Made by a program: the position numbers and the translations under genes. The notes beneath the pieces were generated by a model, which was not told the DNA's origin, did not search any database, and worked only from the letters and a program-made list of their open reading frames with translations. Shown in pieces: positions 52 to 17,170 of a stretch of 42,283 bases of DNA. The stretch spans positions 1-42,283 of the forward strand of contig JAAELW010000164.1 of the NCBI GenBank assembly GCA_024226235.1, given 5' to 3'. Within the stretch, counting starts at the first letter, position 1; every line of letters starts with the position of its first letter. Source of the stretch: a bacterium (GTDB lineage: Bacteria > Myxococcota_A > UBA9160 > UBA6930).

Positions 52-133
52 GGTGTCCCTCCGTCGTGTTGTTAGAGTCACGTGGAGGTTAACAGCAGCG
101 GCCTTCTGCGTTCTGGAGCCCATTTCGCATAGG

Positions 134-268
134 CTCTAACGGATCGGCGTTAACCGGCTGGCAACAGCGCTGACCGGCCCCGACCCTGCCGAGATAGTAT
201 GCCGCCAGATGGCACTCAAGGTCAATTGAACCGAGCTGTTGACAGTCCGGTTCAACGCCTTGTTATCC
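134..268 (-). other. attC recombination site of integron cassette 1
   Basis: The arms 146-157 (GGCGTTAACCGG) and 247-259 (CCGGTTCAACGCC) pair over 12 bp with C253 extruded. The stem continues as 158-168 with 235-245 (10 of 11 pairs) after an extruded T246. Outside are the simple sites CTCTAAC (134-140) and GTTATCC (262-268), whose AAC/GTT triplets are conserved. Extrahelical bases all on one arm, two spacer bases on one side and five on the other, and a 66-base internal region match attC architecture. Both extruded bases lie in the arm next to 262-268, so that end is R'' and the cassette reads on the minus strand. The stop codon of the cassette gene (252-254) falls inside the site, as is common. 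Confidence 0.85.
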
Positions 269-590
269 GGCGGATCCACCCTGTTCGTCGGGGCGTTTCA
301 GGAAGGTGACAGGAGAAGCCACAGTCTCGGCATGTCTCTGGCGTCGAGAGGGAGAACGGGTGCTCGCCGTATCGAATTGGCGAACCACCACAGCTGGGGC
401 ATTGAATCCGATTCGTGGCCATTGGAACAGCCACGAAGACACCAACGAAGAGGACCAAGAACCAACGCGAGACAAGGAACGAAAGGATCGCGATCGGGAA
501 AAACGCCACGTATGGAATGGCAAGGACTCGATTGAACTGATCATGCACGCTCGGCATCGTGGTGTTGCTCACGCTACGCCCGCCGGATAA
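140..590 (-). mobile_element. Integron gene cassette 1
   Basis: On the minus strand the cassette starts after the G of a GTTATCC core (591-585) and ends at the G of GTTAGAG (140). The decisive sign is that its attC R'' (GGATAAC, 268-262) is the exact complement of G plus the first six cassette bases (TTATCC). This is what a circularised cassette requires, since R' is restored only on excision. It is 451 bp long and contains one gene (252-572) in the same orientation, as in typical cassettes. Its start is promoterless except for whatever lies in the attI region or intI transcript. Confidence 0.75.
252..572 (-). CDS. Cassette-encoded small membrane protein with zinc ribbon
   Basis: 106 residues from a GTG start at 572; an in-frame ATG at 557 is an alternative. 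I do not recognise a named family. Residues about 16-52 form two closely spaced hydrophobic segments split by an SRW turn, consistent with a membrane hairpin. They are followed by a Cys pair C58-x2-C61, a second pair C81-x2-C84 and C88, a likely treble-clef or zinc-ribbon site, and a basic C-terminal tail. The gene fills the cassette and its stop lies inside attC. Many cassette proteins are of unknown function and small membrane proteins are frequent among them, but no function is assigned here. Confidence 0.7.
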   Translation of the reverse strand: MSNTTMPSVHDQFNRVLAIPYVAFFPIAILSFLVSRWFLVLFVGVFVAVPMATNRIQCPSCGGSPIRYGEHPFSLSTPETCRDCGFSCHLPETPRRTGWIRRITRR

Positions 591-772: not shown

Positions 773-1753
773 TCAGAGCCTGTCGATTGGGCTCTTGACG
801 GCGAGAGGGCCGCGGTCGAGGACGTGGGTGTAGATCATCGTCGTGCGAACGTCCTTGTGGCCGAGGAGGGTCTGGACGGTCCGGATGTCGGAGCCATCCT
901 CGAGCAGATGGGTTGCGAAGGAGTGCCGAAAGGTGTGCGGGGAGATGCGCTTGTTCAGGTGCGCCTTGGCGGCTGCTCGGCGAACGGCGCGTTGGGGGCC
1001 CGACTCTGTGATGTGATGCCGGCGGACGATCCGTGAACGTGGATCCCGGGAGAGCTGTGCGGCCGGGAAGATCCAATGCCAGCTCCACTCAGCCCCGGCG
1101 TTCGGGTACTTGCGTTCGAGCGCGTGGGGAAGGGCGACTCCGGGCACCTCGTTTTCGCGGTCACGCTCGAACAGTTCTCGCACTCGTGCCAGGTGCTGTT
1201 CGAGGGGGTCTTCGAGCGAGATTGGCAGCAGGGTTGCGCGATCCCGATTCCCCTTTCCCTCTCTCACGGTGAGCTGGCGGCGCCCGGTGTCGACATCCTT
1301 GATCCGCAGCCTCAGGCATTCGAGTAGCCGCAGGCCGGAACCGTAGAGGAGGCCGCCGATCAGGGCGTGCTCACCGCTCAGCTGCGAAAGGACGGCGCGC
1401 ACTTCTTCTCGGGTCATGACCACCGGTAGTCGCCTCGGTGCTCGTGCTCGGACGGCATTGCCGAGGCCCTCCAGCTCCCGTCCGAGGACTTCCCGGTACA
1501 GGAAGAGCAAGGCCGCGAGTGCCTGGTTCTGCGTCGATGCGGCGACATGACGATCGACGGCGAGATGCGAGAGGAACTCCACCACCTCTGCGGCACCCAT
1601 CTCATCGGGGTGTCGAATATGGTGGTAGAGGATGTAGCGCCGAATCCAGCCGATGTAGGCCTGCTCGGTCCGCAGCGCATAGTGGCGTACACGAAGCGCA
1701 ACCCGAACTCGGTCGAGCAGTCTGGGGGGCGTTCCGGATCGGGTCTGGCCCAC
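773..1753 (-). CDS. intI: Integron integrase IntI (tyrosine recombinase)
   Basis: 326 residues from GTG at 1753, chosen because GGGGAGA precedes it by about 5 bases and the length and N-terminus then match IntI proteins. An in-frame ATG at 1918 would add 55 residues that merely mirror the opposite-strand intI remnant. The N-terminal SAM-like DNA-binding part contains [15 protein letters not shown]. The catalytic domain has R142 (GSGLR), K167, H273-x2-R276 (HTFRH), H299 (LLGH) and nucleophile Y308 (MIYTH), so the enzyme appears intact. The extra segment [20 protein letters not shown] (about 211-230) is the insertion that separates IntI from XerC/D. It catalyses attI x attC and attC x attC recombination with folded single-stranded attC. 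Confidence 0.93.
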
Positions 1754-1825
1754 AATGTCTCCCCGGGACCCGGGGGTACTGGGAGCGTAGCTCTCTCGGC
1801 GAAGCCCGCGCCGGGTGGAGAGGAA

Positions 1826-1966
1826 CGGCGGCATTTTCTCGAGCGCGGCCCGGATATCCGCTCGGTGCTGGAGCTGCTCGGGCACCGCAGTGTGAACACG
1901 ACGGTGATCTACACCCACGTGCTGAATCGTGGAGGCCCGGGAGTGCGCAACCCTCTGGATCTACAT
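1826..1966 (+). pseudogene. C-terminal remnant of a second integron integrase
   Basis: On the plus strand, the frame around 1832-1966 reads [18 protein letters not shown], then [13 protein letters not shown] and GVRNPLDL. This is the last 45 or so residues of an IntI, including the box II histidine and the catalytic tyrosine. The same frame continues to a stop at 2035 without recognisable homology. Nothing upstream encodes the remaining domains: the bases before 1753 are the 5' end of the intact, oppositely oriented intI. It therefore looks like a truncated second integrase left by an inversion or by insertion of the present integron next to or into an older one. Confidence 0.85.
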
Positions 1967-2146
1967 ACACCGCCGATGGGGCCTCAGGGATCGGGAAGAA
2001 GTCGGGGTTCGGGGGGAGACCCGGGCTCGCGGTGAACCGGGCAAACCGGATGGAAGGATCCGGGGCACGCCCGGCGGCGCTGTCGTATCCTCGGGGGTTC
2101 GTCACGTTCACCTCTGATCTAGACGGGGCTCACCCGCCACAGACCC

Positions 2147-3115
2147 TTGACTTCGGATCTCCTCACAACTCTCTTCGGCCTGGCCCTGCTTCTGGGTGGC
2201 GGCGACCTGATGGTCCGCGGCGCCTCGGCACTGGCCCACCGGCTCGGGGTCTCGCCGTTGGCGATCGGGCTCACGGTCGTGGCCTTCGGCACGAGCGCGC
2301 CGGAGTTGGCGGTCAACATCACGGCGGCGGTGCGCGGCAGTGGCGGGATGTCCTTTGGCAACATCATGGGCTCGAACATGGCGAATATCGGATTGATCGT
2401 GGCGGCCACGGCTCTCTACAAGCCGCTCCACGTACAGTCGCCGGTGATCGTCCGCGAGCTTCCGATGATGCTTCTGGCGACCGCGTTTGCGGCAGTTCTG
2501 GGCCTGGATGCTTGGATGCGCGGCGGTGAGAGCATCTATGACCGCTCGGATGGTCTGATCCTGCTGCTCCTGTTCACGGTCTTCATCTACTACACGGTCA
2601 ATGACGTGATCGCCCAGCGGCGGGCCCGGGCACCCGAGGCCTCGGAGCCGGAGATCACACCGCGGATGGGCATGGGCACCGCACTCGCTCTCACGCTGAT
2701 CGGGCTGGCGGGCCTGATCTACGGCGCCGATGTCACCGTGGATGGCGCGGTGGGCCTGGCCCGGGGCCTCGGAGTATCGGAAGCCGTGATTGGCCTGACG
2801 TTGGTCGCGATCGGGACGAGCCTTCCCGAGCTCTCGACCTCGCTGCTCGCCACGGCCAAGGGCTTTCCGGATCTGGCGATCGGCAACGTGGTGGGCTCGA
2901 ACATCTTCAACCTGCTGCTCGTGCTCGGTGCCAGCTCCACCCTGCGGGCGGTGCCGGTCCCCGTGGGCGGCGCGTTCGATCTGGCAGTCGTGGGCTTCCT
3001 CTCGCTCCTGCTGTTGGTCACGTCCTACACCCGGGGCCAACACATCATCCGCGCCGAAGCCGTGTTGTTAGGTATCTGCTATCTGGGATACATGGCGTAC
3101 CGCGTGCATTCCTAG
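2147..3115 (+). CDS. Calcium/sodium antiporter, CaCA (YrbG-like) family
   Basis: 322 residues, inner membrane. Two homologous halves carry the alpha repeats of cation/Ca2+ exchangers: AFGTSAPELAVN with GNIMGSNMANI in the first, and AIGTSLPELSTS with GNVVGSNIFN in the second. The acidic residues of the GTS(A/L)PEL motifs bind the cations. About ten hydrophobic segments are present with a short hydrophilic loop in the middle (about 163-177). The start is a TTG at 2147, the only start-like codon after the in-frame TAG at 2120 that precedes the conserved N-terminus; no clear ribosome binding site is visible, so the start is uncertain. It exports Ca2+ in exchange for Na+ or H+. The gene is convergent with nth, 13 bases away. 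Confidence 0.9.
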   Translation: MTSDLLTTLFGLALLLGGGDLMVRGASALAHRLGVSPLAIGLTVVAFGTSAPELAVNITAAVRGSGGMSFGNIMGSNMANIGLIVAATALYKPLHVQSPVIVRELPMMLLATAFAAVLGLDAWMRGGESIYDRSDGLILLLLFTVFIYYTVNDVIAQRRARAPEASEPEITPRMGMGTALALTLIGLAGLIYGADVTVDGAVGLARGLGVSEAVIGLTLVAIGTSLPELSTSLLATAKGFPDLAIGNVVGSNIFNLLLVLGASSTLRAVPVPVGGAFDLAVVGFLSLLLLVTSYTRGQHIIRAEAVLLGICYLGYMAYRVHS

Positions 3116-3128
3116 GCCCAGCGTATTG

Positions 3129-3782
3129 CTAGTTGCGGCGCGCTTCCTCTGAAATCCGACGCCTCGTCGCTGCCCAGCCACAGATCGCGCAACCCGCCAG
3201 GTCGTGGCCGCGCGCCGGGCAATGCTCACGGCCGAAGAAGATCATCTGGAGATGCAGCCTGTTCCACGCCTCGCGTGGGAAGACGCGCTTCAGATCGCGT
3301 TCGGTCTGCTGGACGTTGTGCCCGTTCGAAAGCCCCCAACGCGCGGCCAGCCGATGGATGTGGGTATCCACCGCAAATGCAGGCACGCCGAACACCTGCG
3401 CCATGACCACACTCGCAGTCTTGTGCCCGACGCCGGGCAGCGCCTCGAGGGCCTCGAAGCTCTTCGGAACCTCGCCGGCGTGCTCGCTGAGCAGCAGCTT
3501 CGAAAGTGCCTTGATGTTCTTCGCCTTCTGCGGGGCCAGCCCGCAAGAGCGGATCTTTGCGCGGATCCGCACAACCGGGAGCCGCGCCATCGTCAGCGGA
3601 TCGGGGCCGATCGCGAACAAGCCGGGCGTCACCTGGTTCACCCGCTCGTCCGTACACTGGGCGGAGAGCAGTACCGCCACCAGGAGCGAGAAGGGATCCG
3701 TGTGGTGAAGAGGTACCGGGGGCTCCGGATAGAGCCTGTCGAGCAACTTGTGGATGCGCCGGACTTTCTCGGCCCGCTTCAC
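3129..3782 (-). CDS. nth: Endonuclease III (DNA glycosylase/AP lyase)
   Basis: 217 residues from a GTG that overlaps the gor stop codon (GTGA, 3782-3779), indicating translational coupling. It removes oxidised pyrimidines and cleaves the abasic site in base excision repair. The helix-hairpin-helix LPGVGHKTA contains the Schiff-base lysine K121, and D139 is in the VDTHIHR motif. The C-terminal iron-sulfur loop is atypical: only C188-x9-C198-x2-C201 are seen, against the usual C-x6-C-x2-C-x5-C, with no fourth cysteine in the tail. Cluster assembly is therefore doubtful, although the catalytic residues are intact. Confidence 0.93.
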   Translation of the reverse strand: MKRAEKVRRIHKLLDRLYPEPPVPLHHTDPFSLLVAVLLSAQCTDERVNQVTPGLFAIGPDPLTMARLPVVRIRAKIRSCGLAPQKAKNIKALSKLLLSEHAGEVPKSFEALEALPGVGHKTASVVMAQVFGVPAFAVDTHIHRLAARWGLSNGHNVQQTERDLKRVFPREAWNRLHLQMIFFGREHCPARGHDLAGCAICGWAATRRRISEEARRN

Positions 3783-5134
3783 TCTTCCTGCACCTTCTCG
3801 CGCATCGTGACGAACTCCTCGGCCGCGGTCGGGTGGATGCCGATCGTCGCGTCGAACTGCGCCTTGGTCGCTCCCAGCTTCACCGCGATCCCGATCCCTT
3901 GCAGGATTTCCGGTGCATCTGCACCGATCATATGGGCGCCGACCACGCGATCGCTCTTCGGATCGACGAGCAGCTTCATCGCCGTCATCTCGTCGCGGCC
4001 GGTCAGCGTGTGCTTGATCGGCCGGAAGCTCGAACGGTAGACGTCGATCTCACCGAGCTGTGCTCGTGCCTCGGTCTCGGTCAACCCGACAGTCCCGATC
4101 GGCGGCTGACTGAATACGGCGGTCGCCACGTTGGTGTGGTCGGGCCGGGTGGGCTCGCCGCCGAACACGGTGCGCACGAAGGCCACAGCCTCGGCAAGCG
4201 CCACCGGTGTGAGGTTCATGCGATCGGTCACGTCTCCCAGCGCCCAGATGCTCGGCACGTTGGTCTGCGAGTAGGGGTCGACGAGGATTTCGCCGATCTT
4301 TCCCAGCGCGACGCCTGCCCTTTCGAGGCCCAGATCCTTCGTCTTCGGGATGCGGCCCGTGGCATACAGGACCTCGTCCACGACCAGATGGCTTCCATCG
4401 TTGAGAGCGAGGTGCAGGCCGTCGTCCTCCCGGCGGATCTCCGTGACGTCGGTCTCGAAGCGAAGGCTGACTCCCTTCTTCGGCATCTCCTCGGCGAGGG
4501 TCTTGCGCAGGTCGTCATCGAAGCCGCGCAGGAAGAGCGGGCCGCGATAGATCTGGTGGGTCTCGACACCCAGCCCGTTGAAGATGCCGGCGAACTCCAC
4601 ACCGATGTAGCCACCCCCGACGATCGCCGCGCGCTTCGGCAGTTGCTCGAGTGCGAAGGCCTCGTTCGACGAGATGGTGTGCTCGATCCCCGGAATGGCC
4701 GGAAGGTGCGGCCAGGAGCCCACCGCAACGAGCAGATGCTCCGCCGTGTAGTGACGTTCGCCCACTTCCACCGTGTGGGCATCCACGATCCTGGCCCGAC
4801 CGGAAATGCGCGTGACGCCAGCACCGTCGAGCAGCCGCTGATAGACACCGTTCAGCCGCGCGATTTCCTCGTCCTTGTGGGCGATCAGCGTCGGCCAGTC
4901 GAAGCTACTCGGCCCGACGCTCCAGCCATAGCCCGACGCGTCCTCGAAATCCTCCGAATAGTGCGACGCCAGCACGAAGAGCTTCTTCGGAATGCAGCCC
5001 AGATTGACGCAGGTGCCGCCGAGGCGGTCGTCCTCGGCCACCGCAACCCGCACACCCTGGCCAGCTGCCAGCCGACTCGCGCGCACCCCGCCCGAACCCG
5101 CACCCAGCACGAAGAGATCGAAATCGCGTCCCAT
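3779..5134 (-). CDS. gor: Glutathione-disulfide reductase
   Basis: 451 residues, a cytoplasmic FAD flavoprotein that reduces GSSG to GSH with NADPH. The FAD site GAGSGG is at about 12-17 and the redox-active disulfide is CVNLGC (42-47). The NAD(P) Rossmann motif GGGYIGVEFAG is followed by YRG, whose arginine fits NADPH 2'-phosphate recognition. A second FAD motif (ALGDVTD) and the catalytic dyad IGIHPTAAEE near the C-terminus are present. Length and motif spacing match bacterial glutathione reductases rather than lipoamide or mercuric reductases. It is the first gene of a gor-nth pair. A tandem 34-bp repeat lies just upstream. Confidence 0.93.
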   Translation of the reverse strand: MGRDFDLFVLGAGSGGVRASRLAAGQGVRVAVAEDDRLGGTCVNLGCIPKKLFVLASHYSEDFEDASGYGWSVGPSSFDWPTLIAHKDEEIARLNGVYQRLLDGAGVTRISGRARIVDAHTVEVGERHYTAEHLLVAVGSWPHLPAIPGIEHTISSNEAFALEQLPKRAAIVGGGYIGVEFAGIFNGLGVETHQIYRGPLFLRGFDDDLRKTLAEEMPKKGVSLRFETDVTEIRREDDGLHLALNDGSHLVVDEVLYATGRIPKTKDLGLERAGVALGKIGEILVDPYSQTNVPSIWALGDVTDRMNLTPVALAEAVAFVRTVFGGEPTRPDHTNVATAVFSQPPIGTVGLTETEARAQLGEIDVYRSSFRPIKHTLTGRDEMTAMKLLVDPKSDRVVGAHMIGADAPEILQGIGIAVKLGATKAQFDATIGIHPTAAEEFVTMREKVQEE

Positions 5135-16332: not shown

Positions 16333-16557
16333 TCAGATCCGTTGCTTCAGCGCGTCCAGGATCTCGTGATCTTCGGGATATCGACCTGACTCGTGCTTGG
16401 AGAAGATCCGCTCGCCGTCGGCGGTCACGTCGTAGATCCCGCCGGCTCCCTCGTGGAGCTCCGCTTCGATTCCAAGGTCGTCGCGTAGTACGGCCGCCAA
16501 ACTGGTGGCCCGGGGCAAGTAGTTTCAAGCTCCGCAGTAGGTGATTTCGACCTTCAT
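16333..16557 (-). CDS. SelW/Rdx-family selenoprotein with in-frame UGA (CxxU)
   Basis: 74 residues from ATG at 16557, with GGAGG five bases upstream. Codon 11 is TGA (16527-16525). Reading it as selenocysteine gives MKVEITYCGAUNYLPRATSL, i.e. the family's YCxxCNYxPRA redox motif with Sec in place of the second Cys. The rest is unmistakably Rdx: GGIYDVTADGERIFSKHESG then RYPEDHEI and a C-terminal LKQRI helix. Without readthrough only ten residues would be made. A SECIS-like hairpin follows the UGA. Rdx proteins have a thioredoxin-like fold and are thought to work with glutathione. The gene lies 19 bases downstream of a GST gene and probably shares its transcript. SelA/B/C/D genes are not in the window. 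Confidence 0.92.
16492..16510 (-). promoter_or_regulatory. Bacterial SECIS-like hairpin for selenocysteine insertion
   Basis: Minus strand GGCCaCCA-GTT-TGGcGGCC: four plus three base pairs around one mismatch, with an apical GTT triloop. The loop G is 23 bases after the UGA codon. This fits the general bacterial SECIS description: a small hairpin inside the coding region just after UGA, with G at the start of the apical loop. The fit is by eye; energy was not computed. Confidence 0.7.
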
Positions 16558-16576
16558 TGCGTCCTCCAGTTGACGT

Positions 16577-17170
16577 TCATCCGTTGGCCAGCGCAGAAAC
16601 CCTGGCCGAGTGCTCGATCAGCGCGACACGGGTTTCCATCACGTCGGCGACCTCGGGCCCCACGGCCTGCCGCAGCCCGGAGAGATAGGACCAGACCGCG
16701 AGGTCTGCGCGACCGGGGAGATCTGCATAGAAGAAGGGCCGCGCGCCGAGGAAATTCACCAGGTCGTCCAGCCGCTGGGCGAACTCGCCGGCCAAGCCCG
16801 GATGTGACGGCGGCCCGCCCTCATCCGCATTCACCAACCCGCGCAGATAGTGGATCCAGTAGAACGTGAACGCAGCCTCGGCCCACTGCTCGAGGCGCCG
16901 CTGGCTCTGAGCCACCTTCGGATCCGATGCCACCAGAGGCGGGTCGGGGAAACGGGCGTCCAGAAGATCCAGGATGTGGGCCGAATCGTGCACTCGGTCG
17001 CCATCGACATCGATCAACGGCAGTAGCCCGGTCTCCGGATTCCATCTCCGGTAGTCCTCGGGACTCTGGGGCTCGATGAACTCATACGGAAGTTTCTTGA
17101 GCGCAAGTGCGCCCTGCACCTTCCGGGTAAATGGCGCCGCGATGGGCCCGTAGAGGACGATCTTGCTCAT
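16577..17170 (-). CDS. Glutathione S-transferase
   Basis: 197 residues. N-terminal thioredoxin-like domain: YGPIAAPFTRKVQGAL with the active-site region at APFTR, the cis-proline region GLLPLID, and the glutathione gamma-glutamyl binding motif DSAHILDLL (about 62-70). The C-terminal part is the all-helical GST domain, ending with the helix containing GRADLAVWSYL. It would conjugate or reduce substrates with GSH in the cytoplasm; substrate unknown. It is the first gene of a pair with the SelW-like selenoprotein and diverges from the SurA-like gene with 144 bases between them. Confidence 0.88.
   Translation of the reverse strand: MSKIVLYGPIAAPFTRKVQGALALKKLPYEFIEPQSPEDYRRWNPETGLLPLIDVDGDRVHDSAHILDLLDARFPDPPLVASDPKVAQSQRRLEQWAEAAFTFYWIHYLRGLVNADEGGPPSHPGLAGEFAQRLDDLVNFLGARPFFYADLPGRADLAVWSYLSGLRQAVGPEVADVMETRVALIEHSARVSALANG

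Follow-up and report, generated by a model that had tools for sequence, protein, structure and literature searches.

A predicted SelW/Rdx selenoprotein gene with an in-frame UGA and a covarying hairpin in an uncultured deltaproteobacterial/myxococcal lineage

The gene, its product and its neighbours

The gene described here occupies 16333..16557 of the minus strand of the window, the term we use for the whole 42,283-nucleotide stretch of DNA that was analysed. As read from the sequence, its frame (16557-16333) starts at an ATG, carries a TGA as codon 11 (16525..16527, minus strand) and closes at a terminal TGA stop (16335-16333). A ribosome-binding site, GGAGG, is found at 16563..16567 of the same strand, 5 bases ahead of the ATG, and same-genus relatives likewise have an AGGAG-like site ahead of the gene. 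With the in-frame TGA, which is kept in relatives, read as selenocysteine (U), the predicted product has 74 residues before the stop and bears the motif YC-GA-U: MKVEITYCGAUNYLPRATSLAAVLRDDLGIEAELHEGAGGIYDVTADGERIFSKHESGRYPEDHEILDALKQRI. The TGA is the codon for the second redox position of the motif YCGA-U-NYLPRA. The first in-frame TTG sits three codons past it and would give a 61-residue ORF, and the gene is a clear case of what standard annotation is expected to shorten or miss. A preliminary description of this DNA had noted the codon-11 TGA in a YCxxC motif, the open frame downstream, the GGAGG before the ATG and the length of the TTG-started ORF, all of which hold on the sequence.

Once the TGA is treated as a residue, the product scores well above the cut-off of the Pfam Rdx profile (E 9.6e-16, 58.2 bits, cut-off 22.6) and of NCBIfam TIGR02174 (CXXU_selWTH; 51 bits, cut-off 34.2), which bears out the comparison with Rdx proteins that had been proposed at the outset. 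Against the NCBIfam equivalog NF041051 (SelTWH_Campy) it reaches 76 bits, under the curated cut-off of 88. Cys8 and position 11 are invariant in the SelW alignments and follow the first strand of the thioredoxin-like fold. The AlphaFold model of the product has a pLDDT of 95, and its best PDB matches in Foldseek are bacterial SelW-related proteins (TM about 0.92), followed by MIEN1 and mouse SelW and then by thioredoxins. The bacterial SelW-related structures 2obk, 2fa8, 2p0g and 3dex share the fold (TM about 0.9) at a sequence identity of 24-33%, and we take their chains to be Cys forms, unlike the Sec form of the window. Mouse SelW (2npb) belongs to the same family and has the CxxU motif (E 3.2e-4, Foldseek 5e-4); in eukaryotes, in contrast to the arrangement here, the SECIS lies in the 3' UTR and does not adjoin the UGA. 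Its most likely function is that of a small thiol/selenol oxidoreductase.

Upstream lies a gene for a GST-like protein of 197 aa (16577..17170, minus strand; Pfam GST_N_3, 2.1e-9), whose ORF ends at 16577, 19 bases from the SelW start, and the two genes are probably co-transcribed. The window also encodes a glutathione reductase (3779-5134; 652 bits with TIGR01424, cut-off 606) about 11 kb from SelW. SelW has been reported to interact with glutathione (PMC1088965). By synteny, the GST gene adjoins SelW in each of the five genomes sampled from the genus, and it was undetected beside SelW at all loci outside the genus, some of which are too short to reveal neighbours. On its opposite flank SelW has an unrelated PilZ gene, which likewise is adjacent only within the genus, and the adjacency of GST is therefore weak evidence. 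Thus, of the glutathione link suggested in the preliminary description, the two genes are indeed present, but the genus-restricted GST neighbour lends the role itself little weight; a specific glutathione role is plausible.

The hairpin downstream of the UGA

A hairpin of the form GGCC-A-CCA-GUU-UGG-C-GGCC occupies 16492..16510 of the minus strand. It begins 14 bases past the UGA, and its apical GUU corresponds to 16502-16500, just where the preliminary description had placed a hairpin with an apical GTT. Folding energy computed on single sequences was no better than that of shuffles for five overlapping stretches (z about 0.5 to -1.1), and Rfam returned zero matches to the hairpin both at the gathering score and at E 10.

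Comparison of sequences decides the matter. We evaluated eight pairs, from 16510-16492 to 16503-16499, across 69 distinct, gap-free sequences. In this set 89.9% of hairpin cells are paired, as against at most 47% with slid partners, and the unpaired cells fall mostly at one position, a mid-stem A.C or U.C mismatch. Both sides have changed at five of the eight pairs, giving 24 doubly changed cells where shuffles give 4.7, and on each of five covariation measures none of 500 shuffles reached the observed value. Compensatory change is exemplified by GGCU...AGCC replacing GGCC...GGCC, by UCGAGUCUCGA in L070 and by GACAGUUUGUC in L089, and the same pattern recurs in a wider sequence set. The loop is GUY, with G at position 1 in all sequences and U at position 2 in 66 of 69. 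At the loop, 58 sequences encode Ser by AGT, a codon that makes up 8% of the Ser codons in the window.

The hairpin is missing in Cys homologues. It is perfect in 62 of the 69 Sec forms (98.1% of cells paired when the mid-stem position is excluded), while none of 17 Cys homologues forms it; their 42.9% of paired cells is similar to that of slid partners, and, given that these 17 are distant paralogues, the control is supportive rather than strict. Judged by comparison of sequences and not by energy, the hairpin is a predicted SECIS of the bacterial type, and the SECIS assignment made beforehand thus rests on compensatory changes across 69 sequences, with an unremarkable folding energy and no Rfam match. 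It is presumably similar to the upper hairpin of E. coli fdhF. Its geometry fits the bacterial SECIS description of a small apical loop with a guanosine (PMC1088965). Aligned with one another, the many covarying hairpins make a compact basis for a bacterial SECIS model specific to SelW; no Rfam family matches the hairpin.

Selenocysteine machinery and the UGA in relatives

The source genome is a draft of 5.07 Mb in 564 contigs, 90% complete and 4% contaminated. It contains a tRNA-Sec with a UCA anticodon (67.7 bits, above the Rfam cut-off; ARAGORN agrees), SelA (508.9 bits), SelB (289.8 bits) and SelD (254.7 bits), so that all of selA, selB, selC and selD, which the preliminary description had proposed to look for, are present. 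The four lie on four different contigs, and any single one may for this reason be a contaminant. SelA was also detected in each of the other four members of the genus, and 87 of the 98 genomes that were searched have it. The SelD ORF (L018 (G000:C32), 1375-3621, minus strand) reads as a Cys form (CGGC) fused behind an NADH-dehydrogenase-like part. It resembles in both respects, fused and Cys-bearing, the Ndh-SelD fusions described in the GOS survey, all of which have CxxC (PMC2398784).

A scan of relatives covered 98 genomes, namely the window's own and 97 others, and found SelW with a TGA at codon 11 in 70 of them. This Sec form occurs in 68 of 87 genomes bearing SelA and in 2 of 11 without it (Fisher p 1.6e-4, relatedness ignored). 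Two genomes run counter to this, with a TGA-form SelW and no detected SelA: G010 (85% complete) and G097 (94% complete). The missing SelA of G010 may reflect an incomplete assembly and that of G097 perhaps loss of the machinery. In a second scan, of named genomes that partly overlap the 98-genome set, each of the 80 nearest database relatives carried TGA at codon 11, and since one of its two patterns demanded Cys at codon 11 in DNA terms, the scan did not favour TGA. These 80 include MAGs labelled Deltaproteobacteria, Myxococcota, Planctomycetota, Acidobacteriota, Gammaproteobacteria, Verrucomicrobia, Eisenbacteria, Zixibacteria and others. The frames of TGA-bearing relatives remain open past the TGA, and base changes beyond it in the five genomes of the genus fall mostly at third codon positions, indicating that the downstream SelW frame is under selection at the protein level.

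It could be argued that an error in sequencing or assembly produced the TGA, or that we are dealing with a pseudogene derived from a Cys (CxxC) protein, and the fragmentation of the draft into 564 contigs would be compatible with this. However, the same codon is TGA in dozens of independent assemblies, change downstream of it is biased towards third positions, and compensatory changes keep the hairpin; we consider this explanation refuted by the relatives with the same TGA and give it a negligible probability. The preliminary description had stated that its reading would fall if the genome lacked selenocysteine machinery or if reads had TGC or TGT at 16525-16527; the machinery is present and the relatives have TGA. 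An equally negligible probability attaches to the UGA being a true stop followed by a separate 61-residue protein, even though an automatic gene caller might pick the TTG three codons on. This TTG is not conserved, its place being taken in relatives by CTG, CTC, CTT, CAC, AAA and others, while residues 1-10, to which the invariant Cys8 and the first strand belong, show the same conservation as the rest, and the ribosome-binding site precedes the ATG. The unconserved TTG and the conserved residues 1-10 strongly disfavour such a TTG-started protein.

Insertion of Trp or Cys at the UGA, whether through a suppressor or through an alternative code, is very improbable as well. We found no point in its support, and it is at odds with the complete selenocysteine machinery in the genome, with the way in which the SelW gene tracks SelA and with a candidate SECIS whose loop G is invariant. 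Moreover, both SelW and the upstream GST gene end at TGA, hence UGA is not generally reassigned. We are thus highly confident, on comparative sequence grounds, that the gene encodes a selenoprotein of the Rdx/SelW family, with its UGA predicted to be decoded as selenocysteine and with a SECIS hairpin 3' of the UGA. This is the reading put forward in the preliminary description, now supported by the machinery, the Rdx profile matches, the covarying hairpin and the TGA in relatives.

Proposed mechanism and relation to known SelW proteins

In the mechanism that we propose, SelA would make Sec-tRNA(Sec), with selenophosphate supplied by the NDH-SelD fusion. From established knowledge, SelB carrying Sec-tRNA(Sec) would bind the hairpin 14 bases past the UGA during translation, and selenocysteine would be inserted at residue 11. 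The result would be a 74-residue thioredoxin-like SelW with a Cys8-x-x-Sec11 redox pair, which, again by established knowledge, would cycle via a selenenylsulfide.

SelW-like proteins have long been known as an abundant family of bacterial selenoproteins, recorded in the Sargasso Sea and GOS surveys (PMC1088965, PMC2398784), the latter with 427 Sec against 56 Cys sequences (PMC2398784). SelW is known from deltaproteobacteria, e.g. Geobacter and Desulfotalea, and the scarcity of its Cys forms among Sec users was noted in 2006 (PMC1794560). The bacterial SelW-like selenoproteins are likewise small Rdx proteins with CxxU, a SECIS just past the UGA and a G in the apical loop (PMC1088965, PMC2398784). 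We found no anatomical difference between them and the SelW of the window; only the lineage differs, here an uncultured deltaproteobacterial/myxococcal group. Our literature search found no paper joining the words selenoprotein, selenocysteine and Myxococcota, and SelW by that name is absent from a recent selenoproteome review and from the deep-Sep paper. The SelW of the window thus adds a member in an uncultured lineage to a kind that is already well known and introduces no new principle. The significance lies in pointing to an uncultured bacterial group that relies on selenocysteine.

A more tentative proposal, which we consider rather doubtful, is that Sec is near-obligatory in this SelW subfamily, with orthologues across phyla nearly all having UGA, Cys confined to distant CxxC paralogues and a few members being UxxU. 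If so, the chemistry of this SelW would not be replaceable by Cys.

Two candidate UxxU SelW genes, with TGA at both redox positions, came from a Planctomycetota-centred search and are dissimilar to each other: YUGQUNYLP in L163 (JAQBVK010000056.1, 1267-1485, plus strand) and YUGVUNFKP in L201 (G123:C74:159150-159500, 66-281, minus strand). A SelW with UxxU is not known to us. For both, the closest relatives whose motif was read have CxxU, and each UxxU may stem from one wrong base (TGC to TGA) in its draft genome. A Prx-like family is known to have UxxU (PMC2398784). Among relatives of G123, many have a pair of SelW-like genes, in most cases with an in-frame TGA in each.
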